Of a stretch of DNA of 64,000 bases, positions 9,836 to 33,069 are shown one piece after another (positions within the stretch are counted from its first letter, which is position 1; the number at the start of each line of letters is the position of its first letter). Made by a program: the position numbers and the translations under genes. Below the pieces are notes generated by a model that saw only the letters and a list, made by a program, of their open reading frames with translations, had not been told where the DNA came from and did not search any database. Origin of the DNA: Gammaproteobacteria bacterium. GTDB lineage: Bacteria > Pseudomonadota > Gammaproteobacteria > SZUA-152. The stretch lies in NCBI GenBank assembly GCA_029882975.1, contig JAOUJW010000003.1, positions 193,090-257,089 of the forward strand, in the 5' to 3' direction.

Positions 9836-11005
9836 GTGTCATACCTCAGTTTGAGTCGCTGTAATAGTTTCGTTTTTTTCCTTCCTTTTATTTTAACCTT
9901 AAACGCCTGTGCTTCGCGGCAAGTGGGTTATGAGGCATTGTACTGGCCCCGGCCGCCGGATCGGCCCCGTTATGTGTTCGAGGGCACCTTACGCACCGGT
10001 CAGGATCTGGACTCCTATGCCACGATTTCCCGGGTAAGAGATGCCCTGACGGGATTGGGGCCGGGTAATACGCCGGCGTTTGCCAAGCCTTATGATCTTG
10101 CTGCCCGCAGCGGCCGATTGGTGGTGACAGATACCATTGCGAAAAGCATCATGATGTGGGATATCCCGCGGCGTAAAATGTACCATTTCGGTCAGCGGGG
10201 GCCGGGGTTGGTTAAAAAACCTTTGGGTGTCGGGATGGATGCCAAAGGTTGGGTTTATGTGGCGGACAGTGGCGACAATTCAGTAAAAGTTTACGATGCA
10301 CTGGGATTGTTTGTGCGCGGCATCGGCGCGCCAGAGGATTTTGAACGGCCGGTGGATGTGGCGGTAAATCAGGAGGGAAATCGCATTTATGTGGTGGACG
10401 CGGGCGGCATCAGCTCAAACCGCCATCGTATTCTCATTTACGATGATAAAGGCGAGTCTCTGGGGGTGATCGGTGAGCGCGGTTCCGGTTTTGGGCAGTT
10501 TAATTTGCCCATTCAAGCCGCGGTTTCACCCGCTGGTCAGTTACATGTGCTGGATGCAGGAAATTTCCGAGTACAAGTCTTCAATGCCGAAGGCGAGTAT
10601 GTGTACGCCTTTGGTCAAGTGGGGCGAAATTTTGGCAATATGGCGCGCCCCAGAGGAATTGCCATTGATGCTGAAGGCAATGTTTATGTCTCCGATGCGG
10701 CCTATCGCAATTTCCAGGTGTTCAATTCGGAAGGGCAGTTGCTCATGTCCATTGGCGGGGAGCAGTTTGCGGATAAACCAGGGCATTTTTCCCTCCCGGC
10801 CGGTATTGCGGTGGATGAGACTAATCATGTTTACGTGGTGGATCAAATTTTAGCCAAAGTGGATATTTTTCGTAAGCTGGATGAGGCGGAAGTGGAACGC
10901 GCTGTGCTAGTGAATAAGGTCTGGCAAATTCCACCGCTGCCGCAAATACAGGCCACCGAGGCGACCGTCAGTACGGAGGCGGAGTCGTCAGATTTTGATT
11001 TCTAA
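9836..11005 (+). CDS. NHL-repeat beta-propeller lipoprotein
   Basis: 389 residues. A GTG start with AGGGA upstream gives a lipoprotein signal ending in LNAC (Cys25), so the protein is probably anchored in the outer membrane facing the periplasm or surface. NHL blades follow from about residue 85, with repeats such as KGWVYVADSGDNSVKVYD, GNRIYVVDAGG, GQLHVLDAGNFRVQVFN and GNVYVSDAAYRNFQVF; a six-bladed propeller is expected. The N-terminal stretch WPRPPDRPRYVFEG is shared with the NHL lipoproteins at 20291 and 54414. It directly precedes the tetraheme gene but is separated by about 400 bp. Probable scaffold or assembly factor for secreted cytochromes; no enzyme motif seen. Confidence 0.88.
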   Translation: MSYLSLSRCNSFVFFLPFILTLNACASRQVGYEALYWPRPPDRPRYVFEGTLRTGQDLDSYATISRVRDALTGLGPGNTPAFAKPYDLAARSGRLVVTDTIAKSIMMWDIPRRKMYHFGQRGPGLVKKPLGVGMDAKGWVYVADSGDNSVKVYDALGLFVRGIGAPEDFERPVDVAVNQEGNRIYVVDAGGISSNRHRILIYDDKGESLGVIGERGSGFGQFNLPIQAAVSPAGQLHVLDAGNFRVQVFNAEGEYVYAFGQVGRNFGNMARPRGIAIDAEGNVYVSDAAYRNFQVFNSEGQLLMSIGGEQFADKPGHFSLPAGIAVDETNHVYVVDQILAKVDIFRKLDEAEVERAVLVNKVWQIPPLPQIQATEATVSTEAESSDFDF

Positions 11006-11408
11006 TCAAAGATCTGAAATATGGTTAAGCATTAGCTTACGTAGTATTAAGATTATCTTAAGTAGTAGACGGTTATTTGACGATTTCGACTTCAAATTAT
11101 TGACGCTTCAGTGAAAAATTGGAAAGAAGTGGTAAAAAAGCAATAAATACGAGCGTTTTGTAGTCATTATATTACATAAGACTATGTTAATTAAGGATAA
11201 TTTAGAATCTAACCAGAATGCTAAATTACATTAAATTTACTGGAAACCGGGGGGTGATGGTTTGACAAATCTTTAATTTGTGTGATATTTATAGGATATT
11301 GAATGAAGATTGTTTAAGTATAGCGTTTGTTGTTCAGGGATGATGTGGTACCCACACACAGAATGACATTAAACTCACAGAGCGAGAGAGGCACAGGGGG
11401 TTACACCA
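11006..11408 (+). promoter_or_regulatory. 403-bp AT-rich intergenic region with candidate promoter of the tetraheme operon
   Basis: No gene is seen. TTGACA at 11262-11267 is followed 18 bp later by TATTTA (11286-11291), a plausible sigma70 promoter giving a leader of about 110 nt. A perfect 7-1-7 palindrome TTAAGAT-T-ATCTTAA at 11047-11061 is a possible operator. A purine-rich GAGAGAGGCACAGGGGG sequence lies just before the ATG at 11409. The length and low GC suggest a strongly regulated promoter. Confidence 0.45.
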
Positions 11409-12440
11409 ATGACTCATAAATTCAGAAAAACGGTTGTCAGTGCGGCGTTGGCTGGTGCTGCAGTATTTGCATCAAACGCATTCGCTGCCCCGGCTGGGAC
11501 CGGGCCCATGAACAGTATTGCCGATTCATGGCATAATCTGGGCTCCGGCAATATTAAAGGCGCTACTCCAAATGGGGGTACACCAGCAAACCATTCTACC
11601 CAAACCGGTGAGATATGCGTATTTTGTCATACGCCTCACGGTGGCGATAACTCTGCCGCCGTACCGATTTGGAATAGAAAGTTAAATGATCCTGCAAACT
11701 ATATTCGTTATAGCGCCAACAACAGTACCACATTCGATGCAGAGGAAGGCGAGGTGGGTTCCACTACCATCGCTTGTTTGTCTTGCCACGATGGTGCTCA
11801 AGCTATTGATGCCTTGATCAATGCGCCGGGGTCCGGTAACTATACGGACTGGAGCACAGCACCTTTCGGGAGTGCTGCATATTTGGCATGGGCCGGTGGC
11901 AGCACCAGTATGACCGGTGCGGACATCAATCCGGCGACGGGAGCTCTGGCCAGCGGTATCGTACAAAATCTGGGTACAGACTTAAGTAATGACCATCCGG
12001 TCAGTATGCAATACGGCGGTGGCGGTATTACCGGGGCCGGTGGTGTTGCAACCGGTACTACCATTGACCCGGATTTTACTCAGGTTGGTACGGCACGAAG
12101 CATTAATGATCAGAGTGGTTCTGCGGTTAGCATGGTGATGAATGCCAAAGCAAATCCTTCACCCACTATTAATACCGTGTTTTGGATCGAGCGTTCAGAT
12201 TCCTTAAATCCCAACGACCGTGACCGCGAAGACGTTATTATGTACACCAGAAACCATGGTGGACAATTCCAGCCTTTTGTCGAGTGCGGTTCTTGTCACG
12301 ATCCGCATAATGTGGATAACCCCACATTCTTGAGAACCTCTAACGGTATCCCAAGCACCAATACGGCTTTAGCGGCTATGTTCCCCGGCTCGGTTAATGA
12401 CCCTGCCAGTGGTCTGTGTCTGACTTGTCACGCCAAATAA
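11409..12440 (+). CDS. Secreted tetraheme c-type cytochrome (doubled CXXCH family)
   Basis: 343 residues with a signal peptide (cleavage near residue 26 after SNAFA). Four heme sites in order: CVFCH, CLSCH, CGSCH and the C-terminal CLTCH, which ends the protein as CHAK. The first and third are followed by TPH and DPH, and other non-heme His (NDHPV, RNHGG, SWHN) give enough ligands for all-bis-His hemes. Long Gly/Ser/Thr/Asn-rich stretches separate the hemes, as in extracellular multihemes. It is the first gene of a ten-gene order ending at the undecaheme. A strong terminator follows, so it may be made in excess over downstream genes. Closest relatives are the pentahemes at 53193 and 55588. 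Confidence 0.9.
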   Translation: MTHKFRKTVVSAALAGAAVFASNAFAAPAGTGPMNSIADSWHNLGSGNIKGATPNGGTPANHSTQTGEICVFCHTPHGGDNSAAVPIWNRKLNDPANYIRYSANNSTTFDAEEGEVGSTTIACLSCHDGAQAIDALINAPGSGNYTDWSTAPFGSAAYLAWAGGSTSMTGADINPATGALASGIVQNLGTDLSNDHPVSMQYGGGGITGAGGVATGTTIDPDFTQVGTARSINDQSGSAVSMVMNAKANPSPTINTVFWIERSDSLNPNDRDREDVIMYTRNHGGQFQPFVECGSCHDPHNVDNPTFLRTSNGIPSTNTALAAMFPGSVNDPASGLCLTCHAK

Positions 12441-12469
12441 AGGCTTAGTCAGAGCAGTTCCAGTAAAAC

Positions 12470-12512
12470 AAGCTGGCAGTGAGATGGTTCATCTTGCTGC
12501 CAGCTTTTTTTT
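12470..12512 (+). terminator. Rho-independent terminator after the tetraheme gene
   Basis: Long stem AAGCTGGCAG...CTGCCAGCTT with additional inner pairing GAGATG/CATCTT around GTT, followed by eight T. It should limit read-through into the PPIase gene. Confidence 0.9.
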
Positions 12513-12568
12513 GCTTGCAGAATTTTTCTGTCATAGGATAACGATATAAGTTGTAAGGAATGGAATGA

Positions 12569-13660
12569 ATGAGTAAGCGAGTTTTGCATAGGGCGAGAGT
12601 AATTTTAGGATTTCCGGGCTTGGTTTTTTGTTTGCTGTCCGCCCTTAGTGTTCAAGCCACCGCAGAGGAAGGTTCAGCTGAGGCCGGGAAAACACAAAGC
12701 GACCAGCAGGAAAAGCAGAATGATTATTTCGCTGTTATCGATGGGGAAAAAATACCCATCGATGAATTTTTATATACCTTTCGCCGGGGCGTTCGGGAGA
12801 AGTTTTATCACGGCAAGGTGTCGCGGGATAAAGTGGAGAACTTTAAAAACGAGGTTGCCGACAAACTGGTCACCAAGATATTGTTGGTGAAGGAAGCGAA
12901 GCGTCGCGGTCTCAAGGCGGACGAAAAAGATATCAGCCACCGATTGGATGAGATTGATCAAAAATTCAAAAAGTCCAAAGATGAAAAAGAACGTGAGGCC
13001 TGGGGTAAGGATCGAGGGAAAACATTGACAGTAATTCGTCAGCGTATGGAGGCGGATGCCTTGACGGCATTGTTGTATGAAGAGGTGAAGAAGGTCAGTG
13101 CCATTTCAGAAAACGAATTAAAGGCTTATTACTCCAGTAATAAGGATAAATTTACGGCGCCTGAGCAATGGGATGTGTCTTTGATTTTGTTGTCCGTAGA
13201 TCCTTCTTCTTCTTCGGAAATTTGGCAAAGTGCTATTGAAGAAGGGCAGGCCCTGGTGGAAAAAATCCGTGAGGGCGCCAATTTTGACGAAATGGCCAGG
13301 ATTCATTCAGGTGACGAATCCGCTGCCAACGGCGGTAATATGGGGTATTTACACATTGGCATGTTGTCGGAACCTGCACAAAAAGTGTTGAATATTATGG
13401 AAGTGGGGCAAGTGTCAGAGCCGGTGGTGTTGTTGAAGGGCGTGGCTATTTTTCGCTTAAACGGTGTAAGAAAAGCGCGTTTGAATGAATTTAAGAAAAT
13501 CAAACAAAGTGCCAAGGATCTGCTTGAGAGAGAAAAGGGGGATGCGGCTTGGCAAAATCTGATCGCTTCCCTGCGCAAGTCGGCAACCGTGGAATACAGT
13601 GACGCGATACGGTTGGAATTAAACAGCGTACTGGATCAGGGGCAGTCAAAAGGAAAGTAG
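12569..13660 (+). CDS. Parvulin-type peptidyl-prolyl cis-trans isomerase (SurA/PrsA-like), secreted
   Basis: 363 residues with an N-terminal signal sequence (hydrophobic FPGLVFCLLSALSVQATA). A SurA_N-like helical chaperone segment spans about residues 50-185 (charged, with repeated Lys/Glu helices). A PpiC rotamase domain lies around 205-305, with GGNMGYLHIGMLSE and VSEPVVL as the family signatures. A C-terminal helix completes the fold. It probably folds secreted or outer-membrane proteins of this cluster, such as the barrel encoded next. PPIases recur in Geobacter multiheme loci and in the uet-type order. ATG start with AAGGAA upstream. Confidence 0.88.
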   Translation: MSKRVLHRARVILGFPGLVFCLLSALSVQATAEEGSAEAGKTQSDQQEKQNDYFAVIDGEKIPIDEFLYTFRRGVREKFYHGKVSRDKVENFKNEVADKLVTKILLVKEAKRRGLKADEKDISHRLDEIDQKFKKSKDEKEREAWGKDRGKTLTVIRQRMEADALTALLYEEVKKVSAISENELKAYYSSNKDKFTAPEQWDVSLILLSVDPSSSSEIWQSAIEEGQALVEKIREGANFDEMARIHSGDESAANGGNMGYLHIGMLSEPAQKVLNIMEVGQVSEPVVLLKGVAIFRLNGVRKARLNEFKKIKQSAKDLLEREKGDAAWQNLIASLRKSATVEYSDAIRLELNSVLDQGQSKGK

Positions 13661-13789
13661 GCATACATAAAATATGGTATTTGGCGTGATCCGTTTTGAA
13701 CATCCGCTTTTGGGTGTTACTATGCGCCATCAGGAGTGTGGGGGTTCTGGGGGCGAGACCGGTTGTGGTGGTTTTGATATAACAAGTGC

Positions 13790-15580: not shown

Positions 15581-15748
15581 GTCCATGAGGCGCTAATATT
15601 AGTAAATACTAAATTAATACAGATCGTTGAATGGGTTTATAAATATAAGCATAAATACCAGAGATCCGTTGTCCCAAGGTGATACAACAGGTATTATATG
15701 GGGTCGCGGAGAATTAGTTATTTGTTAGATAATAGGGAGGAGGGCTCT

Positions 15749-16162
15749 ATGTATAAGTCCGCAATAATCGGGGTGTTAAGCATGATGGCTGTGCTTTTAC
15801 TTCCCAATGCCGCCAAGGCTGAATACGCTGATGTGGTGATTAACAACTATGCTGATGCTGCAGGTATGCGACCTGCTGTATTTCCGCATTGGTATCACCG
15901 TATTCGTTTCCGATGTAAAGTTTGCCATGCAGACCTTGGATTTAAATTCAAAGCCGGCGGTAATAAAATAACAATGGCAAAAATTATAGATGGCCAATTT
16001 TGTGGTGCTTGCCACAATGGGGAAATTTCCTGGTCTGTTGAAAACTGCGGTATGTGTCATTCAGGTGTGCCTGGTACACCGACATCTATCCATGGAAGTA
16101 CCGTGCAACGTTTGGTAGCACCTACGTACAAATCCTTGGGTGATAAAGATCGCGCACAGTAA
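15749..16162 (+). CDS. Periplasmic triheme cytochrome c (c7-type), first of three
   Basis: 137 residues from the ATG at 15749, which has a GGGAGGAGGG site; an in-frame upstream ATG at 15698 lacks one. Signal peptide MYKSAIIGVLSMMAVLLLPNAAKA. Heme motifs CKVCH, CGACH, CGMCH with the c7-type upstream FPHWYH, in which His residues serve as distal ligands. Domain layout matches the three-heme c7 family used as periplasmic electron shuttles in metal-reducing bacteria. It is followed 24 bp later by the second triheme gene and the pair ends in a terminator. Confidence 0.9.
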   Translation: MYKSAIIGVLSMMAVLLLPNAAKAEYADVVINNYADAAGMRPAVFPHWYHRIRFRCKVCHADLGFKFKAGGNKITMAKIIDGQFCGACHNGEISWSVENCGMCHSGVPGTPTSIHGSTVQRLVAPTYKSLGDKDRAQ

Positions 16163-16186
16163 GCCAACAGAATAAGGGATAGTATT

Positions 16187-16828
16187 ATGAAAACGATAAA
16201 AATCTTGCTTGGCGCGCTGGTGCTGTTTTCTTTGGTTTTCTCCAGTACGGCAGTATTGGCGGCAAGTAAATCTAAGAGTAAAGTTAGCGACGCTAACATT
16301 TTTAACCGTTTATTGAAGAAAGAAAAAATGCGCAATGCGCCACCACCGAAGGATGGGATCCACGATCCTGCTAACGATGGTACACATGTATTGCAACCCC
16401 CCCTAATTGCCTATGATGGGTTACCTCCATCAGATTTTGGTAACTATGTGGATTGGGTTAAATCGCTGGATGATGGCAAATTGAATCCGCGTTATGATCG
16501 GGCGGATCCAACGGTTGAGCCTTTGGTTATGGATTTGGACATTGTACGAGAAGTAAAAGCATCTATGCCGGATGTGGTGTTTCCGCACCGACAGCATACG
16601 CTCTGGTTGCATTGCTCCAACTGTCATCCGAAAATTTTTATTCCGCAACGCAATGCCAACGTGATCAATATGTCGGCGATTTTGCTGGGACAAAAATGCG
16701 GTGTTTGTCACGGGAAAGTGTCTTTTCCGATTACGACAAAATCTTGCAGGAAATGTCACTCTAAAGACAAACCCAAAGATTGGAAACCGCCCAAGAGTGA
16801 AGCCAGCTTGAAAAACCCTTGGCGCTAG
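16187..16828 (+). CDS. Triheme cytochrome c (c7-type), second of three
   Basis: 213 residues with an N-terminal signal sequence (KILLGALVLFSLVFSSTAVLAAS). An N-terminal 80-residue region, KDGIHDPANDGTHVLQPP...WVKSLDDGKLNPR, precedes the hemes and is also found in the third triheme at 18717, so the two share an added domain. Hemes: CSNCH, CGVCH, CRKCH with FPHRQHT upstream. FIPQRNANVINM between hemes 1 and 2 is shared with the third copy. Probable periplasmic or outer-membrane-associated carrier working with the neighbouring propellers. ATG start. Confidence 0.9.
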   Translation: MKTIKILLGALVLFSLVFSSTAVLAASKSKSKVSDANIFNRLLKKEKMRNAPPPKDGIHDPANDGTHVLQPPLIAYDGLPPSDFGNYVDWVKSLDDGKLNPRYDRADPTVEPLVMDLDIVREVKASMPDVVFPHRQHTLWLHCSNCHPKIFIPQRNANVINMSAILLGQKCGVCHGKVSFPITTKSCRKCHSKDKPKDWKPPKSEASLKNPWR

Positions 16829-16872
16829 TGGGTAAAGAGAATAATTATAATGTACTAATGTTGTGAAGTTGA

Positions 16873-16915
16873 GCGGCGAGTGAACAATCAGTGCACTCGC
16901 CGCTTGTTATTTTGT
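16873..16915 (+). terminator. Rho-independent terminator after the second triheme gene
   Basis: GCGGCGAGTG (16873-16882) pairs with CACTCGCCGC (16894-16903), followed by TTGTTATTTTG. Confidence 0.8.
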
Positions 16916-17019
16916 CTGTCTCATTTTAATCTTTAGCACAATTCCCTTTCTATAGGATTGTAGAAATTATAGGATAATAGGAATTTTATTGTTCCAGGTT
17001 ACAGAGTGAGTATTAACTT

Positions 17020-18660
17020 ATGAGAAATTTGGTCCTGATGCGAGTAGCCGTGGGCGGTATGGTGGCAGGTTTAGCCATTGCCGGATGTTCCGTGAAAAGT
17101 AAACGAGTTGAAGAACCAGCTGTAGCCAAGGAGGCCAAATCGCAGGAGGAAACTCAAGCTGCGGCAGCGGTGCCGGCACCACCGGAAAAGCAAGCCGTGG
17201 AAATACTGGTTCCACCTGCTGAAGTAGCTCAACCCAAGGTGTCCGTTGATCCAATACCTAAAGCTGCTCCCAAACCGGTGGAAACAGCAAAAGTAGAAAA
17301 GCCTGCAGCGGTGAAGCAAGAGCCTTCAGCGGTGAAACAAGAGCCTTCAGCGGTGAAACAAGAGCCTTCAGCGAAAAACCAAGAGCCTGCAAAAGAAGCA
17401 CCCGTAGCGGCAAAAGAGCCCGCAAAGACACCCATGATAGAGGCGCAATCTAAAGCACAAGTAACCGCGCCAAAATCCACCGGACCGGATCATTTTGTTA
17501 TCACGGTTGCAGAAAAAAATTCATCGCATCCCCATTTTGGTAAGGGGCATAAATTGGGCTTTTCCGTTAATGGTGAGCCGGGCAAAGAGCTGGTAGTGCA
17601 GCGATCCAAAGCTTATCGCTTTGAAGTAGCCACAGACCCCAAGCACGATGTGTATTTTTCCACCAAAGAAATCGGTTGGGGTTCCAGTCCTTGGGCCGAT
17701 GGTGTGGAAGGCGCGTTTATTTACAACGGTATCATCAATGTCAAACTGGACGACAAGGCTCCCAAAGCCTTGTACTATTCCTGTCGAAATCACCCCTATA
17801 TGGGTGGAAGAATTCATGTGGTTAATCCGGGGGAAACCGTTGCCATAAAAAAAGGCAAGAGTTCCTCTGGCGCCGCTGAAACAGAGGTTAAGGTTACCGC
17901 AGGCATGGTGAATCAAAAGTTAATGTTTGCGCAAATGTTAATGAAATCCCAGTCGTTTAAGTCCCTGACGGCTGTCCAGCGCCAAACTGCAGAGGAACTG
18001 GTCGCCGGTGCAAAGCAGGACTCAAAAGCCGGGAATCACCAACAGGCGTTTGCAGCAGCAGAAAAGGCTTTGGTTATTTTGAAAAATAAAAAGTCTGCCA
18101 GCGCGGTTGCTAAAGATAACCCGCAGGTAAAAGCCGAATATAAGGAGCTTACAGCATCCATTGCAGATTATGAAAAATCCCATGCGGACAATGTGAAACG
18201 AGTCAAGAAAGCCGGTAAATCCAAACCTGTTAATTACGACAAGGACAAAGTTGCCGCTTTAAAGAAAAAAGCCGAAGACGCGGCGAAACAAAATGACTAC
18301 GAATCCGCCAATCACAGTCTGCATGAGGCTCAAAACCTCATCACTAAAGCACTGCAAGGCATGTTACATTCCACAACAATTGTTTATGACTTGAATTTTG
18401 AAACACCACAAGAAGAATATGAATATGAGTTGAAACGCTTTGGAGGTTACGAAGAGCTGATACCGGTTGCCATCGAAGCAAAAAAACCGGCGGAGGGAGC
18501 GAAAAAACTCATGCAAATGTATTTGAAAAAAGGCCGTGATATGAGAGAGGCTGCAGTGAAAAAGGCGGCATCCGGTGATTTCCCGGTAGCCATCGCCATG
18601 CTGCTGGATGCCACTAAGGAAGTTCGGCGGGCATTACGCATGGTTGGCGTAATGCAATAA
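17020..18660 (+). CDS. Cupredoxin lipoprotein with Lys-rich helical C-terminal domain
   Basis: 546 residues. Lipobox IAGC (Cys23). Residues 30-150 are a Pro/Ala/Lys/Glu linker with a short tandem repeat. Residues about 157-270 form a cupredoxin-like domain with a complete type 1 copper ligand set: His209 in DPKHDVYF and Cys255, His258, Met261 in YSCRNHPYM, i.e. C-x2-H-x2-M as in amicyanin. Residues about 300-546 are predicted helical, with Ala/Lys-rich repeats such as KAEDAAKQNDYESANHSL; function unknown. It lies between triheme genes 2 and 3 and would put a copper electron carrier in the cytochrome chain. Starts the 17020-21460 operon after a terminator. Confidence 0.8.
   Translation: MRNLVLMRVAVGGMVAGLAIAGCSVKSKRVEEPAVAKEAKSQEETQAAAAVPAPPEKQAVEILVPPAEVAQPKVSVDPIPKAAPKPVETAKVEKPAAVKQEPSAVKQEPSAVKQEPSAKNQEPAKEAPVAAKEPAKTPMIEAQSKAQVTAPKSTGPDHFVITVAEKNSSHPHFGKGHKLGFSVNGEPGKELVVQRSKAYRFEVATDPKHDVYFSTKEIGWGSSPWADGVEGAFIYNGIINVKLDDKAPKALYYSCRNHPYMGGRIHVVNPGETVAIKKGKSSSGAAETEVKVTAGMVNQKLMFAQMLMKSQSFKSLTAVQRQTAEELVAGAKQDSKAGNHQQAFAAAEKALVILKNKKSASAVAKDNPQVKAEYKELTASIADYEKSHADNVKRVKKAGKSKPVNYDKDKVAALKKKAEDAAKQNDYESANHSLHEAQNLITKALQGMLHSTTIVYDLNFETPQEEYEYELKRFGGYEELIPVAIEAKKPAEGAKKLMQMYLKKGRDMREAAVKKAASGDFPVAIAMLLDATKEVRRALRMVGVMQ
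17308..17391 (+). repeat. 21-bp tandem repeat (3 copies plus a degenerate fourth)
   Basis: Three units of GCGGTGAAACAAGAGCCTTCA (first with one G variant) at 17308-17328, 17329-17349 and 17350-17370, and a diverged unit to 17391. Each adds AVKQEPS to the linker of the cupredoxin lipoprotein, so copy number can change without a frameshift. Confidence 0.95.
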
Positions 18661-18716
18661 GTATCAGGGAGACTAAGAAGTTGTTGCTTAAACAGTATTT
18701 AAAAGGAATCACAAGA

Positions 18717-19259
18717 GTGAAACGACTTGGACTTATGGGATTATTCTGTATGATCTTTGTGCCGTCACTCACGGCCGAGGAGGGCAGCGGGCATTTCCAG
18801 CTGCACGGAGACGTGGTGCCAATTCATAAGGATGGTATTCATGATCCGGAAAATGACGCAGTGAACACGCTGCAGCCTCCCTATGAGGCAATGAAGGATT
18901 TTCCCCGTGATGCACGCGGTGTCATCAATTGGGTGGAAACCCTGAATCAAGGTTTTATCAACCCTAGAACCGGGTTGACCGGAAAAGAAAAAATGCATTC
19001 TGTGGATTTCGATGTCATTTTCAAAAATACCGCATCCATGCCCTACGTGCGTTTTCCACATCTCCCGCACACAAAGTGGCTAACCTGTAAGAATTGCCAC
19101 CCAGGTATATTTCTACCCCAACGCGGGGGGAATTTTGTAACCATGGCTGCCATTATAGAGGGAGAATATTGTGGAGTTTGTCATGGGAAAGTTGCTTTTC
19201 CGCCACTGGAGTGTAATCGATGTCACAGCGTTGCGCGGAAAAGTGTCGGTTTAAGATAA
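18717..19259 (+). CDS. Triheme cytochrome c (c7-type), third of three
   Basis: About 180 residues from a GTG at 18717 with AAGGA upstream, giving the signal peptide KRLGLMGLFCMIFVPSLTAE; a TTG at 18681 would add 12 residues. It has the same N-terminal domain as the second triheme (KDGIHDPENDAVNTLQPP, WVETLNQGFINPR) and hemes CKNCH, CGVCH, CNRCH with FPHLPHT upstream. It overlaps the next NHL gene by 40 bp, a sign of tight co-translation. Gene order cupredoxin-triheme-NHL-NHL suggests one complex. Confidence 0.88.
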   Translation: MKRLGLMGLFCMIFVPSLTAEEGSGHFQLHGDVVPIHKDGIHDPENDAVNTLQPPYEAMKDFPRDARGVINWVETLNQGFINPRTGLTGKEKMHSVDFDVIFKNTASMPYVRFPHLPHTKWLTCKNCHPGIFLPQRGGNFVTMAAIIEGEYCGVCHGKVAFPPLECNRCHSVARKSVGLR

Positions 19260-24268: not shown

Positions 24269-24301
24269 GCGAGCTTGTTTGTATATTTTAAGGTTGCAGG
24301 T

Positions 24302-26479
24302 TTGAAAGCAGTATTGGTGGCAAACCAGGCCCGGCGTTTTCCCGGCCTGGTTTTTATTCTTTGTTGTATTTGTACTTCGGTCCTGGCTGAACCCCAGGCC
24401 CGTTTTGCCTATAGTGTCAACTCTGTAGATAACAGTATTACTGCCTACCGAATTAATGAGTACGGCATTCCTGTTTATAATAGTCATATGCATGGCGGTA
24501 AGTTTCCCTCCTCGGTGGCAATACATCCGGGAGGAAAATTTCTAGTTACCACTTCGCAAATACGAAATCGAATTCAGGTCTATTCCATTGATTCAAAAAC
24601 CGGAGAAATCGCAAAACACGGAGCGCCGGTTGATGATAAAAGTTTATCCATTTTTGATTCGGATTTTACCCCTGCCGGGGAGTTTTTATACGTGGCGGGT
24701 CGAATATCCAACACCATTTCGGCCTATCGCTTCGATGCGGTTACCGGGAGATTAACCAGCATATCCGGCAGTCCCTTTAAAACGCCGGGGCGGCCACGCC
24801 AGTTGTTGATTCACCCGTCCGGACGATTTCTTTTTACGTTGGGTGTTTTTGACGACACCGTATCGGTATTTTCCATTGACGAAAAATCCGGCGAACTGAC
24901 TCTAGTTCAGAAAAGCTCCGTAGGTGTTGCGCCTATGAGTATAAAAATGGATTTCTATGAACAGCCGGAATACACCAAATCTGCTCCGTATAACTTAGCG
25001 CTGGACGCAGAAGGTAAAGTGCTCTATGTGGCCAATTGGGTATCTGCAAGTATTTCTGCGTTTTTAGTAGATACGCATACCGGCAAATTGACAGTGGTGC
25101 CGGGCAGTCCTTTTATTACCGAGGCTCATCCCTACAGTGTGATAGTCGATAAAAGTGGACGCTATGTCTATAGTGCACACTGGGCATCGGATAAGATTAT
25201 ACTGTACAAAAGGGAGGCCAACGGTGCTTTACAGCGCGTTGCCGGAGCCGAAGTCACCGCAAAAGGTCAAGCGCCGGTAGATTTGTGGATAGATCCGTCG
25301 CAGCGTCTTTTATACGTGACAAATTATGTGAGTCACAATATTTCAGTGTTTGAAAGGGACATGTCCAATGGCCGTCTTCGGTTTAAGGACGCTTACACTA
25401 CCCGCAACAACCCGAGAAAACTGGCGTTTCTCACGGGAAATACACCAGTCCGAATTCAGTCGGATGCGTTGTTTGTGTTGGATAAACGGTTTAATAAAAT
25501 TCAAGCCTATCGTTTGCAACAGGGCGTACCTCAGACCGGTACTCGGTCAGAGCAAGTGGTCAAAGGTAAGCCCGTGGCACTCAGTTATGATCGTGAGCAT
25601 GCCCTAGTCTATGTGTTGACTCAAAACCCCAATCAGTTACTTGTATTTCGTTATGATGTGCAAAAACATGATTTACGCCCATTGAGTAATTCCACGTTGG
25701 CTCTGCAGTGGGAAGCAGAGGCCGTGACAACGGGTGTCACAGGGCGATTTGTGTATGTGGCCAATACCAGTCAAGGTCATATGTCTGTATTTGAGTACGA
25801 TGCGGATAAAAACCGTTTGCAATCCTGGCCTGAGTCACCCTTTGTATCCGATCCGGGGCCCGCCGCACTGCGTATGGGGTCGGATGAGAAAATTATGTAT
25901 TCGGTAAATACTAAAAACAATACTATTTCAGCATTTATGTTTGGCGAAGGAGATGCTCCCACTCCCTTGATTCGGAATTTAATTCGCTCAGAGTTTATTT
26001 TTAAGACCGGGGCCGAACCTAAAGATATAGTGTTTGATGTAGGCGGTAAGTTCGCTTACGTGGCCAACTACGGTGACGATTCTCTGTCGCCGTACTGGGT
26101 ACATCAACATAACGGTAAACTGACTCAAATTCGTCTTCCAGGATATTCTGCCGGCAAAGGACCTATTAGTTTGGCTATGCATCCCGGCAACCGTTTCTTA
26201 TATGTGGTAAACCGCAAAGAATCCACCGTATCGGTGTTTGATATGGACCCAACCAATGGAATAATAACCGAGCGTAAGCGAGTTAAGACTGGGAAAACGC
26301 CCATCAAAATACGCTTGGATGATGGGGGGCGGTATGCTTATGTGGTTTACGAAAACTCTGCAGTTATGAGTGTTTTTTCAATCAATGACACTGGTAAACT
26401 GCTTAAGCTTAAGGACGTGACTTTGCCTGGAATTGTTGCTGATTTTGTTTTGCATCAAAGGATAGCGGCAACTCAATAA
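24302..26479 (+). CDS. Large YVTN/lactonase-like beta-propeller protein, copy 1
   Basis: About 725 residues from the TTG at 24302 (TAAGG 8 nt upstream; a TTG at 24275 is an alternative). Signal peptide with RR then LVFILCCICTSVLA. Blades of the YVTN/6-phosphogluconolactonase-like type repeat throughout, for example PSSVAIHPGGKFLVTTS, EFLYVAGRISNTISAYRFD, KVLYVANWVSASISAF, RFVYVANTSQGHMSVFEYD and KFAYVANYGDDSLSPYWV. Two seven-blade propellers would fit the length. Catalytic lactonase residues cannot be judged. It is coupled to the undecaheme gene 33 bp upstream, and the pair is repeated at 28142-33069, so it is probably a dedicated partner of that cytochrome. Confidence 0.85.
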   Translation: MKAVLVANQARRFPGLVFILCCICTSVLAEPQARFAYSVNSVDNSITAYRINEYGIPVYNSHMHGGKFPSSVAIHPGGKFLVTTSQIRNRIQVYSIDSKTGEIAKHGAPVDDKSLSIFDSDFTPAGEFLYVAGRISNTISAYRFDAVTGRLTSISGSPFKTPGRPRQLLIHPSGRFLFTLGVFDDTVSVFSIDEKSGELTLVQKSSVGVAPMSIKMDFYEQPEYTKSAPYNLALDAEGKVLYVANWVSASISAFLVDTHTGKLTVVPGSPFITEAHPYSVIVDKSGRYVYSAHWASDKIILYKREANGALQRVAGAEVTAKGQAPVDLWIDPSQRLLYVTNYVSHNISVFERDMSNGRLRFKDAYTTRNNPRKLAFLTGNTPVRIQSDALFVLDKRFNKIQAYRLQQGVPQTGTRSEQVVKGKPVALSYDREHALVYVLTQNPNQLLVFRYDVQKHDLRPLSNSTLALQWEAEAVTTGVTGRFVYVANTSQGHMSVFEYDADKNRLQSWPESPFVSDPGPAALRMGSDEKIMYSVNTKNNTISAFMFGEGDAPTPLIRNLIRSEFIFKTGAEPKDIVFDVGGKFAYVANYGDDSLSPYWVHQHNGKLTQIRLPGYSAGKGPISLAMHPGNRFLYVVNRKESTVSVFDMDPTNGIITERKRVKTGKTPIKIRLDDGGRYAYVVYENSAVMSVFSINDTGKLLKLKDVTLPGIVADFVLHQRIAATQ
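24322..24355 (+). terminator. Terminator-like hairpin inside the start of the propeller gene
   Basis: AAACCAGGCC (24322-24331) pairs with GGCCTGGTTT (24344-24353) and is followed by further T. The hairpin overlaps the signal-peptide codons of the propeller gene, whose only plausible starts lie upstream. It may attenuate transcription between the undecaheme and propeller genes. Confidence 0.6.
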
Positions 26480-26507
26480 TCCTTCCTGTGTCACCAAAGT
26501 CTCCTGT

Positions 26508-27773
26508 TCAAAAAAGCCCCGGTATAAAACGTTTCTTCACCTGTTGCATATACTGCCGGTACTCGGGAAATTTCTGTAAATGACGCTCTTCCGTAAAGGC
26601 TCTTAATATATACAGGGTTGCCCACATACTGTAGCCATAGACAAATTTTAAAGTCCAAAATTGTTTGTAGAAAGCGCCCTGGGAAAACCACAGCAACAGT
26701 TTGAATGTTGTGCCCGGGTGGCGGATTAGGCTATAGAGCCCTTTATTTTGCAATTTCTTAAAGGTGACATTGACTATAGAGGGCCCCAGAGATACATTGG
26801 AGTAAATTTGAAAGCCTAAAAGCACAACCTCCAATACTTTTAACGCGGTTAACGTTACAACTCCGGAAAACACCAGGTCTTGCTCCAGCCCTGTCGCTGC
26901 ATGGGGGCCAAAGGGGAAAAACGATCCGGTGATTTCGTTGAGTGGCGCATAACAGGCGAAACACACTAACCAGCCGCCGGCAGTTAAATCTACTGAGCGG
27001 CTGCGATTCTCCAGCCAGCGCGATTCCAGTCCGTAGTTAAGCGCCGCATTGACAATGTCGGTAGTCCAAAGTACAGCGCTGACCATCACCAGAAAACTTA
27101 GAAACTGCCATTGTGCCTGCAAAGACTGGTAGATATTGATGGAGCTGACTAGATTGGCCAAGACTTGAGCAATCATAATGGGTATAAAATAGCCCCGCAT
27201 GAGAATGTTTAATAGGACTTTTTTATTGGTGGGGTTTTTCAGTACTCTAAATGGATTCTCCGGTGTATGTTGCGCGCCACTGGTAGAGGGTTTATCGGCA
27301 AACAAGGCCAATCCCATTTGTTTTACGATATGGATGATTCGTACCGCCGGATCATAGAAATCTTCTACTCGGGAGGATTTAAAAATCAATGTAAGGACAA
27401 AGTAAGGAAAGCCCCCATACAGGCTGGCCATAAGTAAATACTCAAAGAAAATCTCGTTCGCCCTGAAGCTTGAGGTGCCGTAAAAGGGAAGTTGGGTGTA
27501 AAGCAATTTGGCCGATGCGATTATGGATAGCCAGACCAGGTAGCGGGCCAGTGCCTGGCGCAATACAGTCCGCCAACGAAACTGGCGGTTGTAACGGAAC
27601 ACGCTCTTGCCGAGCTTTTGTTGCCATAGCAGGGCCACGCTGTTCAATAATGCGAGCAGTAATAGCGGGATGAGAAAATACGCCTGTTCCCAGGAGGTAT
27701 TGGCAAAAAGCCAAGTCATACTTAAGGTGGTAGCCAGAGCGCACAGAAAATAGATGTGGGGTGAAATATGCAT
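26508..27773 (-). CDS. Polytopic membrane protein with ICMT-like methyltransferase domain
   Basis: 421 residues with several hydrophobic membrane segments (for example YFLCALATTLSMTWLF, AYFLIPLLLLALLNSVALL, and a run near 215-240). The C-terminal 110 residues match the isoprenylcysteine methyltransferase/phospholipid methyltransferase-like family: GLYSLIRHPGTTFKLLLWF, then RAFTEERHLQKFPEYRQYM, with RHP and EER as SAM-site signatures. The substrate is unknown; bacterial members methylate lipids, quinones or proteins, or are uncharacterised. It sits on the opposite strand between the two undecaheme-propeller modules and converges on the first propeller gene. Confidence 0.75.
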   Translation of the reverse strand: MHISPHIYFLCALATTLSMTWLFANTSWEQAYFLIPLLLLALLNSVALLWQQKLGKSVFRYNRQFRWRTVLRQALARYLVWLSIIASAKLLYTQLPFYGTSSFRANEIFFEYLLMASLYGGFPYFVLTLIFKSSRVEDFYDPAVRIIHIVKQMGLALFADKPSTSGAQHTPENPFRVLKNPTNKKVLLNILMRGYFIPIMIAQVLANLVSSINIYQSLQAQWQFLSFLVMVSAVLWTTDIVNAALNYGLESRWLENRSRSVDLTAGGWLVCFACYAPLNEITGSFFPFGPHAATGLEQDLVFSGVVTLTALKVLEVVLLGFQIYSNVSLGPSIVNVTFKKLQNKGLYSLIRHPGTTFKLLLWFSQGAFYKQFWTLKFVYGYSMWATLYILRAFTEERHLQKFPEYRQYMQQVKKRFIPGLF

Positions 27774-28141
27774 GGTCCGATTATACGGGTTTCCATTTTC
27801 AGGGGAAGCTTTTGCCTCGGCTGGGTGAGGTTGGACCAGTTCTCATATATGCGGAATTTACTGATAGACATCTTGAACAATCCCACAAAAAGATAAGAGT
27901 ATTGGAGGGGGTCAGCTACTGTGATTGCCGACAGTGTCCCGGCTCATACTTAGGTAAAGTGTTGCTTCTGTTGTACCCGTTCGACTTAAGGAATCAGGTT
28001 ATGGAAAACATTCCAGTCGTCTGTATTTGTTCTTACCTGACGGTTTTTGTCAGCCATTCGCCCATAAAGTAAATCACCATTTATCCGATATGAAGACGAA
28101 TAGGCTGCGCAATAGGAAATTGCGCTTTTGGGGATTATCAA
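27774..28141. promoter_or_regulatory. 368-bp intergenic region with a hairpin just before the second undecaheme gene
   Basis: No supported gene. GCGCAAT (28107-28113) and ATTGCGC (28119-28125) form a perfect stem with a five-base loop, followed by TTTT and then GGGGA, which serves as the ribosome site for the TTG at 28142. The hairpin is thus placed to act as a terminator/attenuator or to influence access to the ribosome site. The region must also hold divergent promoters for this gene and the ICMT-like gene. Confidence 0.45.
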
Positions 28142-30784
28142 TTGTACAAACAGTTTTTTATAGTATTAATTTTTGTGGGCTCAGTTGTGGGGTTAATTAC
28201 CCCCGGATGGGCTGCTCGAATCTCAGACGTTAAGAACACCAAGCACAATTTTTCCACTAACAGTCCCACTTTGCTGTTTGATGAAAATGGAAATCCGGTT
28301 ATACGGTCGGTGGAGGCAGTCAGTGAAACGCAGATTTGTGTGTTTTGCCATACGCCTCATGCTGCTAATCCGCAGGCCAAAGTGCCCTTGTGGAATCGCG
28401 GCCTGTCCGGGGCTACCTACCAGGTTTACGGGTCACAGATTAACGGCAGCGGTACCAGCTCATTGGACGCAACAGTTTCACAACCCAATGGAATATCCAA
28501 ATTATGTTTGTCCTGTCATGACGGTACGCTTGCTATCGGTGCAGTCGATGTTCTAAACGGCACTGCTTCCAGTACGGTTGAAATGGCGGGTGTGGGGGGC
28601 AGTGGAGAAATGGCCCCCGGGACGTTTGGTGTCGATAGTGGTTTTACCCGAAATTTGGGCACGGATTTGACTAACGATCATCCGATTTCCCTGATGTACG
28701 ATCACAATTTGGTGGTGATGGATGGGGAAATGCGGGTGCCATCGGAGCAAGCAGATATTGTGGTTCGCACCCGAGATCCCTTGCCCGCAGACCAGCCGAG
28801 AAAAGCCATCCATTTACAACCGGTGGCGACCAATACCACCGGCGGTTTAGTGCAGTGTAATAGTTGCCATGATCCACATATTCGGGATGATGAAGATCCC
28901 GGTATCAAATTTCTGCGATTGAATCGCTTACAGAAAAATGTCCATCCCAGTACCGACACCGTTTTCAATAAAGACAATGATATTATATGTTTGTCCTGTC
29001 ACCAAAAAGAAGGTTGGGCCGGGTCGGCGCATGCCAATAGTGATGTGGCCGATGAGGTCTATACCAGCAATGCAGCTGCATTGCGTGAGTTTCCTACAAC
29101 CGGTTTAGGAACTCAAGTCTGGCAATCCTCATGCTTGGCCTGCCATGACACACATACCGTGCAAGGTTCCAGGCGTTTGTTGCGGGAAGGAACCGATAGT
29201 CTGTCGCGGCCGAAACAGGGCGGGGCCCCGGCTTTGGAGCAGACCTGCTATGCATGTCATTCTAATGATGGGGATACCTTGGTTACGCAAGGTTTGAATA
29301 CCGAAGTCCCGGATGTTAAGAGCGATTTTTCTCTGCCTCGCCATATGCCAATAACGAGCGAGGAACAGGGTAATTTCAGAACGGAAGTTCACGATATTGG
29401 ATCCAGTGTGTTGCCGCAGGCTGGAAAAGATTTTCTGGAATCAGCAGCGAAATTGGGAAAAATATCTGCCGGTGGAACGCTAAACAATCGCCATGCTGAA
29501 TGCACGGATTGCCACAATCCTCATCGAGTTACCAAGACTCGCTTGTTTTATACCGACCCTTTTACGGGGAGCGCCGAGGATGATAGAGCCGCTGGGACAC
29601 ATAATCACAGTGCGCCCCACAGTAACATTGCCTCAGGAGTGCTCAAAGGGACATGGGGAGTGGAACCCACCTATATCAGTAATAGCTTTCATATCGATCC
29701 TATATTTGATGTTAACAGTGTAAAACGGGGTAATCCACCCATCAATGCCTCCACTTTGGTGACCAGTGAGTATGTGACGCGGGAATATCAAGTATGTTTG
29801 AAGTGTCATTCCAACTATAGCTACGATACACCTCCCAGCCTGGGTGTGTCGACGCCCCCCAATACCAACGGCATGATGGCTTACACTAATCAGGCGACAG
29901 AATTTCATGCGCCATTGAGCCATGCGGATGAACCGGTCAGTTTGGGCTTGGATGGAGGTGCCGGGGTGGCACCTGTTAGCGCCAATGCTCCGGATTGGAA
30001 CACCAATAACCATCGATCATGGCACCCGACCATGCGTGCGACCGGACGCACGGCGGCAAAAAGAAATGCGAACGCCAACAATTGGTTGGCACCATTTAAT
30101 TCAGCCATTGGCAGTTTAACCATGTATTGTTCTGACTGTCATGGTAGTAATACGAATGTGGATACGGTGGTGCCGGGGGATGGGTCAGAAAATAGTCGTC
30201 CCTGGGGACCGCACGGATCGGAAAATGACTTCATTCTTAAGGGGGCCTGGTCCGGAGATCGACTCAATGGTACGGGCGAACTGCAAGGCAGTCCCGGTGC
30301 TCAAAACCACTTGTGTTTTAAGTGTCACGATTTTGACCAATATGCCAATCCTGCGGCCGCGCCTCAAGACAGTGGCTTTAGTATGACAGGAATGTGTTCT
30401 GATATGTGCGGTGGTGGTGGCATGGGTGGAATGGGGGGTATGAATAATTTGCACATCTTCCATGCTAATCAAGTACAGAATTTCCGTTGCAATTTCTGTC
30501 ATGTAGCCGTGCCTCACGGTTGGAAGAACAAGAATTTTCTAGTCAATCTGAATGATGTGGGGCCGGAAAGTACCAACGGAGATCGCGGAGAAGTTCGTAA
30601 CAATACCACTGCCGCGTATACCAACGGACCTTATTACAACCGAGCAGTATTAAAAGTCGTCACTTTTGCACAAAGCGGTGGATGGGATCCGGGGCGCTGT
30701 GGGTCAGCCAACACGGGGGGCAACGGCCAGACCGGAGTGAACTGGATGGCGTTTGGAAGCGAAGCATGTAACAATGTACCCTAA
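28142..30784 (+). CDS. Undecaheme (11 CXXCH) secreted c-type cytochrome, copy 2
   Basis: 880 residues from a TTG start; signal peptide MYKQFFIVLIFVGSVVGLITPGWAA. Eleven motifs: CVFCH, CLSCH, CNSCH, CLSCH, CLACH, CYACH, CTDCH, CLKCH, CSDCH, CFKCH, CNFCH, at the same relative places as copy 1. Long stretches are identical or nearly so (TKHNFST, ICVFCHTPHAAN, GWKNKNFLVNLNDVG), so it is a recent or constrained paralog. The Met/Gly-rich stretch before heme 11 is shorter here, but holds CSDMC. It is followed by its own propeller gene. May be expressed under different conditions or form a different complex. Confidence 0.93.
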   Translation: MYKQFFIVLIFVGSVVGLITPGWAARISDVKNTKHNFSTNSPTLLFDENGNPVIRSVEAVSETQICVFCHTPHAANPQAKVPLWNRGLSGATYQVYGSQINGSGTSSLDATVSQPNGISKLCLSCHDGTLAIGAVDVLNGTASSTVEMAGVGGSGEMAPGTFGVDSGFTRNLGTDLTNDHPISLMYDHNLVVMDGEMRVPSEQADIVVRTRDPLPADQPRKAIHLQPVATNTTGGLVQCNSCHDPHIRDDEDPGIKFLRLNRLQKNVHPSTDTVFNKDNDIICLSCHQKEGWAGSAHANSDVADEVYTSNAAALREFPTTGLGTQVWQSSCLACHDTHTVQGSRRLLREGTDSLSRPKQGGAPALEQTCYACHSNDGDTLVTQGLNTEVPDVKSDFSLPRHMPITSEEQGNFRTEVHDIGSSVLPQAGKDFLESAAKLGKISAGGTLNNRHAECTDCHNPHRVTKTRLFYTDPFTGSAEDDRAAGTHNHSAPHSNIASGVLKGTWGVEPTYISNSFHIDPIFDVNSVKRGNPPINASTLVTSEYVTREYQVCLKCHSNYSYDTPPSLGVSTPPNTNGMMAYTNQATEFHAPLSHADEPVSLGLDGGAGVAPVSANAPDWNTNNHRSWHPTMRATGRTAAKRNANANNWLAPFNSAIGSLTMYCSDCHGSNTNVDTVVPGDGSENSRPWGPHGSENDFILKGAWSGDRLNGTGELQGSPGAQNHLCFKCHDFDQYANPAAAPQDSGFSMTGMCSDMCGGGGMGGMGGMNNLHIFHANQVQNFRCNFCHVAVPHGWKNKNFLVNLNDVGPESTNGDRGEVRNNTTAAYTNGPYYNRAVLKVVTFAQSGGWDPGRCGSANTGGNGQTGVNWMAFGSEACNNVP

Positions 30785-30873
30785 CCCGGGCGGCGCGATT
30801 TGCCGCTGTGTATAACAATAATGCGCTTAGAGTGGAACTGTCAGGAACTCTCCTGTAGCGCAAAGGGTGATGC

Positions 30874-33069
30874 ATGCCAAGCTTATTGAAACAACTGCTG
30901 CTGCAGGTGATGTTTGCAGCTGGTATCTGCTTCAGCGTTGCTGCGCACGGGGCTCAGTATTTTTATTCCATCAATTCTCTGGATAGCACCCTAAGTTCTT
31001 ATGTGAGTGATGCTGGTGTGCTGCGTCACGCCGGCTTTATATCGGTTCCCAAAAACCCCAAAGCGTTGTTGGTGCATCCGGATAAGAAAACGGTTTATGT
31101 GCTGTCGAAAACTACGGCTCAGATAAGTGTTTTTAGGCAAGAAGTACACGGTTTGCACGAGTTGGATTTCTCCCCCTACTCTTTAAGTCTGCCTTCGCCA
31201 TTTGCCATGCAGTTTCATAACAGCGGACAGTTTTTGTATGTAGCCAGCCGGGCGGGCGCCATTTTGGCTTATCGCATTGAAGCCGACCGTAGTCTCAATC
31301 CTGTTAAAGGGTCACCCTATAAATCCGGCCAACGCACGCGTTCTCTTGTGCTGCATCCCAGCGGAAATTATCTCTATGCGGTAAACGCGCACAGCAATAC
31401 TATTTCAGCTTACAGCGTTGACGTAGACAGTGGAGCTTTAATTCCTTTACCTGAGTCCCCCTATGTACTTGAGGCTAAAGATATGGAGCTTAAAACCGCT
31501 GTGCCCTTGGTGGATTTTCCGTCCCAAGCCGGTGGTGTCCCATATTTTGTCAATATCCATCCCTCCGGGGGCTATCTTTATGTCACTCATTGGGCCACGG
31601 CTTCGGTTTCCGTCTATAAAATTAATCCGGATGGACGCTTGTCACGCCTGGCTGGAAATCCGTTTCCGACCGGATTGAATCCTTTTTCGGTGACCCCGCA
31701 TCCCAACGGCAAATTTGTTTATATTAGCAGTTGGGGAGAACATCGTATTTACGCTTATCGTGTCGATGCGAATGGCGCCTTATCTCTTATGAAACGTCGG
31801 GTTAGTACTGCCGGAAAAACACCGGCCACTTTGGTGTTCAATGAATCAGGCGCGATCGCTTATGTTGTCAATACGCAGACAGACAGCATTACCGCGTTTG
31901 GAGTCAACACAAAAACCGGTGCTATGCACATTAAACAGCATTTACAGACCCGGCCCGGTCCTTGGGAGTTGCACCCCGGTGGTTTGGCTGACGCCAATAA
32001 GGTCCTAAAGGAAAGTACGCTTATTGACAGTAACAAAAAAATTCAGAAGAGTGCGAAAAACTCCAGGCAAGTAAAGAAAGATCAGGGAAAAGGTGAGTTC
32101 CTGTTTGCTTTAGACAAGTTTCGTCGTTACCTCACGGCTTATGAGGTGCAAAATGATGGCAAACTTAGAGAAATTGCCAATACAACTTTAGCGGGTAGGC
32201 CCGTTGATCTGGTCTCAACGAAACAATATGGGGTTGTGGTAGCTTATGAAGATACGGGTTCTTTAGATGCTTATACATTATCACTACAGCGGAAACAGTG
32301 GACTCGACTGGCCAGGCAGACTTTGCAGCTGGGGAAGGGGAAGAAGCAGTTGTTGCTCGATAACAATGAAAAATACCTTTATGTGTTAAATCGGGACAGG
32401 AAAACATTACATTCCATCCAAGTGGAGGCTTCTACCCAAATGGTACTACTTGAGGCGTTGTCGGACAGGCGCAGTGAGGCTGTGAAGTTAACGCTGGACC
32501 CGGCTGGACGATATTTGTTTGAAGTGAATGGTCAGCCCAGGGATGTGGCAGTGAAAGGATTTCGAGATCCTGCGGAAGTATTAAGTTACGAGCGGCGTAA
32601 ATGGGGGTCTCCTTATACTTTAGTGGGTACTGCACAGGATGCGGTCGTGTCTCGTGGTGGAAACTTCCTTTTGATCTCTCATTCCCAGCCGCAGCAGTTG
32701 GCCGTTTATTCCGTCCAGCACCGGACCGGAGCTTTGGAATTGTTACCCGACTCCGTAATACCTATGCCCCTGCCGGTAAACGTTATAGCGTCTCATCCGA
32801 CCGAATCCTTGCTCTATGTGGTGGCCGGTAAGACTATTACTGTTTATAAGTGGTTTGACGTCACAGGAACACTGAAAGAGATTTCTCAGTTTAAAACTAA
32901 TTTACCACCGGTTTCGATGGTTATTGAACCGGGGGGTGAATTTGCCTATGTAAGCTATTCCAAGCGAGGTGCGGTGGACGTGTTGGAAATCGATAAAGCA
33001 GGCGGTTTAAAGTTCAAGGCCAGTACCAAAACGCGCGGACGGCATTTATTATTGTTTTCTACTATTTAG
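30874..33069 (+). CDS. Large YVTN/lactonase-like beta-propeller protein, copy 2
   Basis: 731 residues with signal peptide MPSLLKQLLLQVMFAAGICFSVAAHGA. Blade motifs match copy 1 in kind: KALLVHPDKKTVYVLSK, QFLYVASRAGAILAYRI, NYLYAVNAHSNTISAYSVD, GYLYVTHWATASVSVYKIN and KFVYISSWGEHRIYAYRVD. Sequence has diverged more than the paired undecahemes have. Residues near 385-410 form a Lys-rich spacer between two propellers. Starts about 90 bp after the undecaheme stop. Probable partner or assembly factor of undecaheme copy 2. Confidence 0.85.
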   Translation: MPSLLKQLLLQVMFAAGICFSVAAHGAQYFYSINSLDSTLSSYVSDAGVLRHAGFISVPKNPKALLVHPDKKTVYVLSKTTAQISVFRQEVHGLHELDFSPYSLSLPSPFAMQFHNSGQFLYVASRAGAILAYRIEADRSLNPVKGSPYKSGQRTRSLVLHPSGNYLYAVNAHSNTISAYSVDVDSGALIPLPESPYVLEAKDMELKTAVPLVDFPSQAGGVPYFVNIHPSGGYLYVTHWATASVSVYKINPDGRLSRLAGNPFPTGLNPFSVTPHPNGKFVYISSWGEHRIYAYRVDANGALSLMKRRVSTAGKTPATLVFNESGAIAYVVNTQTDSITAFGVNTKTGAMHIKQHLQTRPGPWELHPGGLADANKVLKESTLIDSNKKIQKSAKNSRQVKKDQGKGEFLFALDKFRRYLTAYEVQNDGKLREIANTTLAGRPVDLVSTKQYGVVVAYEDTGSLDAYTLSLQRKQWTRLARQTLQLGKGKKQLLLDNNEKYLYVLNRDRKTLHSIQVEASTQMVLLEALSDRRSEAVKLTLDPAGRYLFEVNGQPRDVAVKGFRDPAEVLSYERRKWGSPYTLVGTAQDAVVSRGGNFLLISHSQPQQLAVYSVQHRTGALELLPDSVIPMPLPVNVIASHPTESLLYVVAGKTITVYKWFDVTGTLKEISQFKTNLPPVSMVIEPGGEFAYVSYSKRGAVDVLEIDKAGGLKFKASTKTRGRHLLLFSTI

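Follow-up and report, generated by a model that had tools for sequence, protein, structure and literature searches.

A 64,000-nucleotide stretch of the genome of a gammaproteobacterium of the SZUA-152 lineage (contig C3 of the source genome, bases 193090–257089; hereafter the window) carries a complete Uet gene cluster, whose ten genes, uetABCDEFGHIJ, lie on the plus strand between positions 11409 and 24268 and follow the published order, according to the open reading frames (ORFs) of the window and their Pfam matches. Judged by sequence comparison, the surface cytochromes of this locus belong to the OmcE nanowire family. We consider it probable, at roughly 60%, that the locus encodes the Uet system as a nanowire-type electron conduit of the outer membrane, in which dedicated accessory proteins would fold, export and hold OmcE-family cytochromes at the cell surface. 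The building and anchoring of cytochrome nanowires have been studied mostly in Geobacter.

Comparison of the tetraheme cytochrome UetA with all Protein Data Bank (PDB) chains revealed two matches, 7TFS (E 5.8e-18), an entry labelled 'Cytochrome c' which we take to be OmcE of Geobacter sulfurreducens, and 9YUQ (E 2e-16), a putative multiheme cytochrome; the next match had an E-value of 2.4, and no further multiheme chain of the PDB matched at E<10. The same two chains were the best matches of the UetJ profile (7TFS, E 4.4e-31, positions 12–228) and of two pentaheme cytochromes encoded further downstream. In 46 UetA sequences, the four CXXCH motifs and the distal histidines H42, H77, H196 and H300 are conserved, with no further histidine, and the conserved histidines align with those of OmcE in TKH, CHTPH, NDHP and CHKVH. 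A CXXCHxK C-terminus was found in all 18 aligned OmcE-type proteins (UetA and pentahemes), as well as in OmcE and 9YUQ, while all 11 CXXCH motifs of UetJ are invariant in alignments of 14 and 28 sequences.

Altogether, homology to OmcE extends over UetA, the two pentahemes and the N-terminal region of UetJ, and UetA shares with OmcE the four heme-binding motifs, the four distal histidines and the C-terminal end. The other proteins exceed the four-heme complement of OmcE, with seven extra hemes in UetJ (11 in total) and one in each pentaheme (5 in total), and are relatives of OmcE rather than orthologues. OmcE is described in PMC12307469 as a tetraheme cytochrome, one heme of which is ligated by a histidine crossing the subunit interface. 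By analogy, UetA may polymerise. Gly/Met-rich, Cys-containing stretches, which could possibly bind metal, are encoded at 23840–23940 and 30380–30470, just 5' of the last heme in both undecahemes of the window.

The core of the window is the already known Uet cluster of Tenderiales and Gallionella. Passages of two papers (PMC10734462; PMC12575090), both citing Eddie et al. 2022 for the primary description, report UetABCDEFGHIJ for Tenderiales and later in Gallionella with the same parts list, and UetJ with its porin is reported in Leptothrix-group genomes in a passage of PMC13386937. An initial annotation of the window, made without database searches, had likened the gene order to that of the uet cluster of Candidatus Tenderia electrophaga, and the uet identification was borne out, since PMC10734462 gives the same ten parts and PMC12575090 names them uetABCDEFGHIJ. 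All ten genes, their order and their predicted parts are identical in the window, which differs from the described clusters in an additional NHL gene 5' of uetA, a second undecaheme gene accompanied by two double-length propeller genes, and cytochrome c maturation genes downstream. The second undecaheme and the pentahemes named in the initial annotation were confirmed at positions 28142, 53193 and 55588, and the two undecahemes, UetJ and UetJ2, are 62% identical over 865 aa.

A search of named genomes with the UetJ profile yielded more than 500 relatives. Among the best 79 of these loci, the uet order is common to Gammaproteobacteria, Betaproteobacteria, Magnetococcales and some Alphaproteobacteria. 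Within the source family, 23 of 24 genomes have a match to the profile, some of them solely to shorter relatives. Searches for uetJ and uetA on plasmids gave no match. The duplicated module of an undecaheme and a double-length propeller is a lineage-restricted variant, observed in two families among the genomes sampled. One genus of the source family contains solitary extra uetJ copies without a propeller (four loci, L063, L064, L067 and L071), located in a different neighbourhood with ORFs of about 350, 220 and 620–890 aa.

Nine propeller genes, comprising four NHL, two lactonase-type, two Reg_prop and one Kelch gene, are spread over 9.8–55.5 kb of the window. The initial annotation had given the correct total, but the interval 9836–33069 to which it referred holds five of them, the rest being located at 47–56 kb. 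The association of propellers with cytochromes was analysed in 369 Gammaproteobacterial genomes, drawn evenly, with both profiles applied at E <= 1e-40. UetJ-type proteins were detected in 50 genomes and NHL propellers in 51; both were present in 49 genomes, only one in 3, and neither in 317 (Fisher p 1.8e-57, genomes being treated as independent units), the positives being distributed over about 40 genera. Among the 150 NHL matches listed, at least 128 have an OmcE- or UetJ-type match no more than 2 kb away, where about 0.6% of the sequence would be expected by chance. An NHL or lactonase-type propeller is encoded within 3 kb of 62 of the 69 uetJ copies with enough flanking sequence, and uetI is the 5' neighbour in 62 of 85 uetJ copies. 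Among UetH homologues, 39 of 49 carry a lipobox.

A phylogenetic tree was constructed for 122 NHL proteins, which were chosen by similarity to the window propellers and thus form a biased set, and which were labelled by gene context independently of the tree. The labels change 6 times on the tree, compared to a minimum of 4 and a mean of 48 upon shuffling. Propellers adjacent to UetJ, those in the UetH position, those adjacent to uetA (including NHL0, encoded 5' of the window's uetA) and those adjacent to pentahemes (including NHL3, encoded between the two pentahemes of the window) are separated from each other, and 62 UetJ-partner NHL proteins from Alpha-, Beta- and Gammaproteobacteria and Magnetococcales form a single clade with a support of 100. 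The full-length (double-length) lactonase-type propeller is encoded directly 3' of a uetJ-type gene in 9 of the 9 cases in the sample, all in only two families. Of the 40 genomes that have a full-length uetJ, 39 also contain the Reg_prop pair (one being on a partial contig), compared to 4 of the remaining 329 (p 6e-47); the pair thus tracks full-length uetJ almost perfectly despite a distance of 23 kb. The initial annotation had named equal frequency of propellers with and without the cytochromes as decisive against a partnership, and for these propeller families this outcome was therefore not obtained.

The initial annotation had suggested that each cytochrome has a dedicated propeller partner. 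Co-occurrence, adjacency and clade structure uphold this rule for most OmcE-type cytochromes, including the UetJ type, but it fails for the trihemes UetD, UetE and UetG, which have no propeller of their own each, for the class I cytochromes and for other multiheme loci. A propeller for every multiheme cytochrome is ruled out by the same genome, where the loci with 10, 25+15, 41 and 21+17 hemes contain no propeller within the stretches fetched; one NHL gene, on contig C27, is not flanked by any multiheme gene. The rule, of which the initial annotation knew no description as a system, is not entirely new: UetHI had already been named, NHL or other propeller proteins beside outer multiheme cytochromes had been reported, and OscD of the Geobacter osc operon had been assigned to nanowire morphology. 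The partner-specific NHL clades, the association with the Reg_prop pair and the relationship of UetA, UetJ and both pentahemes to OmcE are not stated in the literature passages compared, which came from papers other than the original reports on Uet, on osc and on the nanowire survey.

Alongside the observed parts, gene order, homology, ligand conservation, co-occurrence and clade specificity, we infer a filament, its anchoring and the roles of individual parts as follows. The periplasmic c7-type trihemes UetD, UetE and UetG, perhaps together with the copper lipoprotein UetF, would pass electrons to the outer cytochromes, or receive them, at UetC. The peptidyl-prolyl isomerase (PPIase) UetB would fold the multiheme proteins, and the 28-strand barrel of UetC would export or thread them. 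UetA would form, or be able to form, a heme filament, which UetJ, with its OmcE-like head and seven-heme tail, might cap or anchor. At the outer membrane, the OmcE-type cytochromes would be assembled or anchored by NHL lipoproteins specific for their partner.

Such an arrangement can be compared with the osc (omcS companion) operon of Geobacter sulfurreducens (Shen et al. 2025), for which a passage of PMC13194489 states that OscH folds, OscEFG secrete and OscD shapes OmcS nanowires. In the window, a PPIase, a predicted channel and a propeller are encoded beside an outer multiheme cytochrome. The parts of the Osc machinery are likewise said to be a PPIase, a channel and a propeller, OscD being reportedly propeller-like. 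By analogy, both systems would encode an outer multiheme cytochrome together with factors for its folding, secretion and morphology, and assembly factors resembling the osc machinery appear to be the best explanation for the PPIase, the channel and the propeller. The client of osc is the hexaheme OmcS, whereas the cytochromes of the cluster, with 3, 4, 5 or 11 hemes, have OmcE rather than OmcS as their match.

The AlphaFold2 (AF2) model of UetC, with a predicted local distance difference test score (pLDDT) of 90, is a barrel with 28 long strands. In structure comparison, the highest Z-score was obtained for MtrB (6r2q_B, Z 19.6, 374 residues aligned, root-mean-square deviation 12), but TonB-dependent receptors scored only about 1 lower; the fold match therefore identifies UetC no further than as a large outer-membrane barrel. 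In UetF, H209, C255, H258 and M261 are invariant in 17 homologues and correspond to a type-1 copper ligand set, from which the copper domain is predicted to be cupredoxin-like. The cupredoxin proposed in the initial annotation is thus backed by the ligands and not by Pfam, in which UetF has no match, and a PDB profile search with the copper domain gave designed or helical chance matches only. The C-terminal region of UetF has no assigned fold.

A conventional porin–cytochrome conduit without filaments, with a cytochrome in the UetC pore, monomeric UetA and UetJ, and propellers that are structural or dock to minerals, appears to us a somewhat unlikely alternative. Passages in published accounts do name Uet a porin–cytochrome complex (PMC10734462; PMC13386937), and literature passages suggest that NHL proteins bind mineral nanocrystals. 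UetC is MtrB-like in size, MtrB is its closest structure by Z-score, and a large barrel and electron transfer at the outer membrane are common to Uet and the Mtr/Mto systems. However, the cluster lacks a decaheme cytochrome of the MtrA type, UetC has no match to the Pfam family MtrB_PioB (PF11854), and a real MtrB is encoded at a separate locus of the same genome. Moreover, in the PDB the cytochromes match the filament protein rather than MtrC or OmcA. The PCC3 system of iron oxidisers similarly combines a barrel with multiheme cytochromes; its periplasmic cytochromes have 21–27 hemes according to PMC10734462, while the 21+17-heme locus of this genome lies outside the window, on contig C37.

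It is very improbable that the propellers are mere hitch-hikers, i.e., generic periplasmic proteins that were inherited along with an electron-transfer island and act as enzymes or sensors (lactonase, Reg_prop) independently of individual cytochromes. The lactonase-type propellers do match 6-phosphogluconolactonase folds, and the Kelch gene is seldom found nearby (5 matches). Against this stand the 49/1/2/317 distribution over about 40 genera, the position-specific NHL clades that extend across classes, and the adjacency of UetI and UetJ, which is kept from Magnetococcales to Gammaproteobacteria. As for the direction of electron flow, uptake is suggested by analogy with Tenderia. Reduction of an external acceptor, for example in a conduit for metal-oxide respiration, would be in line with the role of OmcE and OmcS in Fe(III) reduction in Geobacter, mentioned in PMC12307469, and with the statement in PMC10734462 that conduits may run both ways; we nevertheless hold it unlikely, since Uet is reported in cathode-oxidising Tenderiales and iron-oxidising Gallionella.

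Several points weigh against the interpretation of Uet as a nanowire-type conduit with dedicated accessory proteins. To our knowledge, filaments have not been observed with any protein of the Uet system. UetJ, with its 11 hemes, far exceeds OmcE in size, and the AF2 model obtained for it, with a pLDDT of 39, is unusable. Outside the Gammaproteobacterial core, weakly matching ORFs of about 290 aa occur in place of UetF, and the co-occurrence of propellers would equally be expected from simple operon co-inheritance.

A more far-reaching proposal, which we put forward tentatively and at somewhat less than even odds, is that Uet constitutes a second, widespread class of cytochrome nanowires, mainly in Gamma- and Betaproteobacteria, in which UetA filaments would be capped or anchored by UetJ, orthologous dedicated NHL proteins would act as chaperones or anchors of OmcE-type cytochromes, and one lineage would have duplicated the module of undecaheme and double-length propeller. 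Should Uet prove to be a nanowire system of the OmcE type, it would provide a concrete structural model of how cathode- and iron-oxidising proteobacteria take up electrons. From the co-occurrence and the clades, each NHL lipoprotein is predicted to bind its own cytochrome. Relatives of uet are present in genera with cultured members, namely Ramlibacter, Rubrivivax, Noviherbaspirillum, Halomonas and Thalassotalea, so that the hypothesis would be testable outside the uncultured Tenderiales.

Table 1. Features of the Uet locus and its surroundings, in window coordinates.
Feature	Position	Strand	Evidence
NHL0, NHL propeller lipoprotein 5' of uetA	9836..11005	+	NHL E 3.9e-29; lipobox LNAC
UetA, tetraheme OmcE-type cytochrome	11409..12440	+	7TFS E 5.8e-18; 4 CXXCH
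UetB, SurA/PrsA-like periplasmic PPIase	12569..13660	+	Rotamase E 8.9e-14, SurA_N; NCBIfam PPIase models
UetC, outer-membrane beta-barrel, 596 aa	13790..15580	+	AF2 model; C-terminal Phe
UetD, c7-type triheme	15698..16162	+	Cytochrome_C7 E 1.1e-14
UetE, c7-type triheme	16187..16828	+	Cytochrome_C7; c7-type repeat protein 3ov0 E 4.8e-24
UetF, 546-aa lipoprotein with predicted type-1 copper (cupredoxin-like) domain	17020..18660	+	conserved ligand set
UetG, c7-type triheme	18681..19259	+	Cytochrome_C7 E 8.8e-11
UetH, NHL propeller lipoprotein	19220..20290	+	NHL, DUF5128
UetI, NHL propeller lipoprotein directly 5' of uetJ	20291..21460	+	NHL E 2.3e-26
UetJ, undecaheme; OmcE-like N-terminal tetraheme part and 7-heme extension	21590..24268	+	11 CXXCH; 7TFS match
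LacP1, double-length lactonase-type propeller 3' of uetJ	24275..26479	+	Lactonase E 1.1e-74, 6 stretches
Membrane methyltransferase-like protein	26508..27773	-	weak PEMT E 0.0027
UetJ2, second undecaheme	28142..30784	+	11 CXXCH
LacP2, double-length lactonase-type propeller 3' of uetJ2	30874..33069	+	Lactonase E 8.3e-48
ResB-like and CcsA-like genes (system II cytochrome c maturation)	36348..38290	+	named from sequence alone
RegP1 and RegP2, Reg_prop propeller pair	47697..50157	+	Reg_prop E 4.2e-25 for RegP1; RegP2 (48898) by paralogy
Kelch propeller lipoprotein	50233..51624	+	Kelch_1 E 2.6e-25
Pentaheme 1, OmcE-type	53193..54176	-	7TFS E 8.3e-11; CXXCHxK C-terminus
NHL3, NHL propeller lipoprotein between pentahemes	54414..55523	-	PF01436 matches
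Pentaheme 2, OmcE-type	55588..56391	-	9YUQ E 7.2e-13; 7TFS E 2.9e-12
Two class I cytochrome ORFs in different frames, with 3 + 2 (or 3) hemes	56600..58761	+	CXXCH counts

The DNA of the window contains 57 matches to the CXXCH motif versus 5.7 expected by chance, a number reached in 0 of 100 shuffles. Of the 52 motifs counted in the initial annotation, 51 are in frame within 11 ORFs, and the 52nd, at 57892, is in frame but lies 5' of the first usual start codon (ATG, GTG or TTG) of ORF 57931. The class I hexaheme of that annotation proved to be two ORFs, 56600 and 57931, in different frames. A frameshift in the region 57760–57960, either a sequencing error or slippage, may join the two to give one hexaheme; alternatively, the start codon may be an unusual one. 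ORF 56600 stops just past a run of nine A.

Genes resembling cytochrome c maturation systems of the ResB/CcsA type (36348–39525) and of the Ccm type (39722–47300) adjoin each other in the window. A homologue of the ResB-like gene is found within five genes 3' of uetJ in 36 of 65 loci, and the same number holds for the CcsA-like gene. The methyltransferase-like gene is a neighbour conserved in the family, with 10 homologous ORFs in related loci. A fused protein resembling an MFS (major facilitator superfamily) transporter and spermidine synthase is encoded at 33113–36184, next to LacP2, and the omcS region of Geobacter also contains a spermidine synthase, GSU2502; this link was rejected as a coincidence, no homologue being present in the other stretches searched.

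Elsewhere in the same genome, loci L166, L167, L168 and L170 encode a decaheme together with an MtrB_PioB barrel, a cytochrome with 41 hemes, and two cytochrome pairs with 25/15 and 21/17 hemes. At about 170–184 kb, contig C2 carries a second NHL and multiheme locus (L163, L164), where three NHL genes accompany cytochromes of 18, 3, 6, 8, 11 and 4 hemes, an OmcE-type tetraheme among them.

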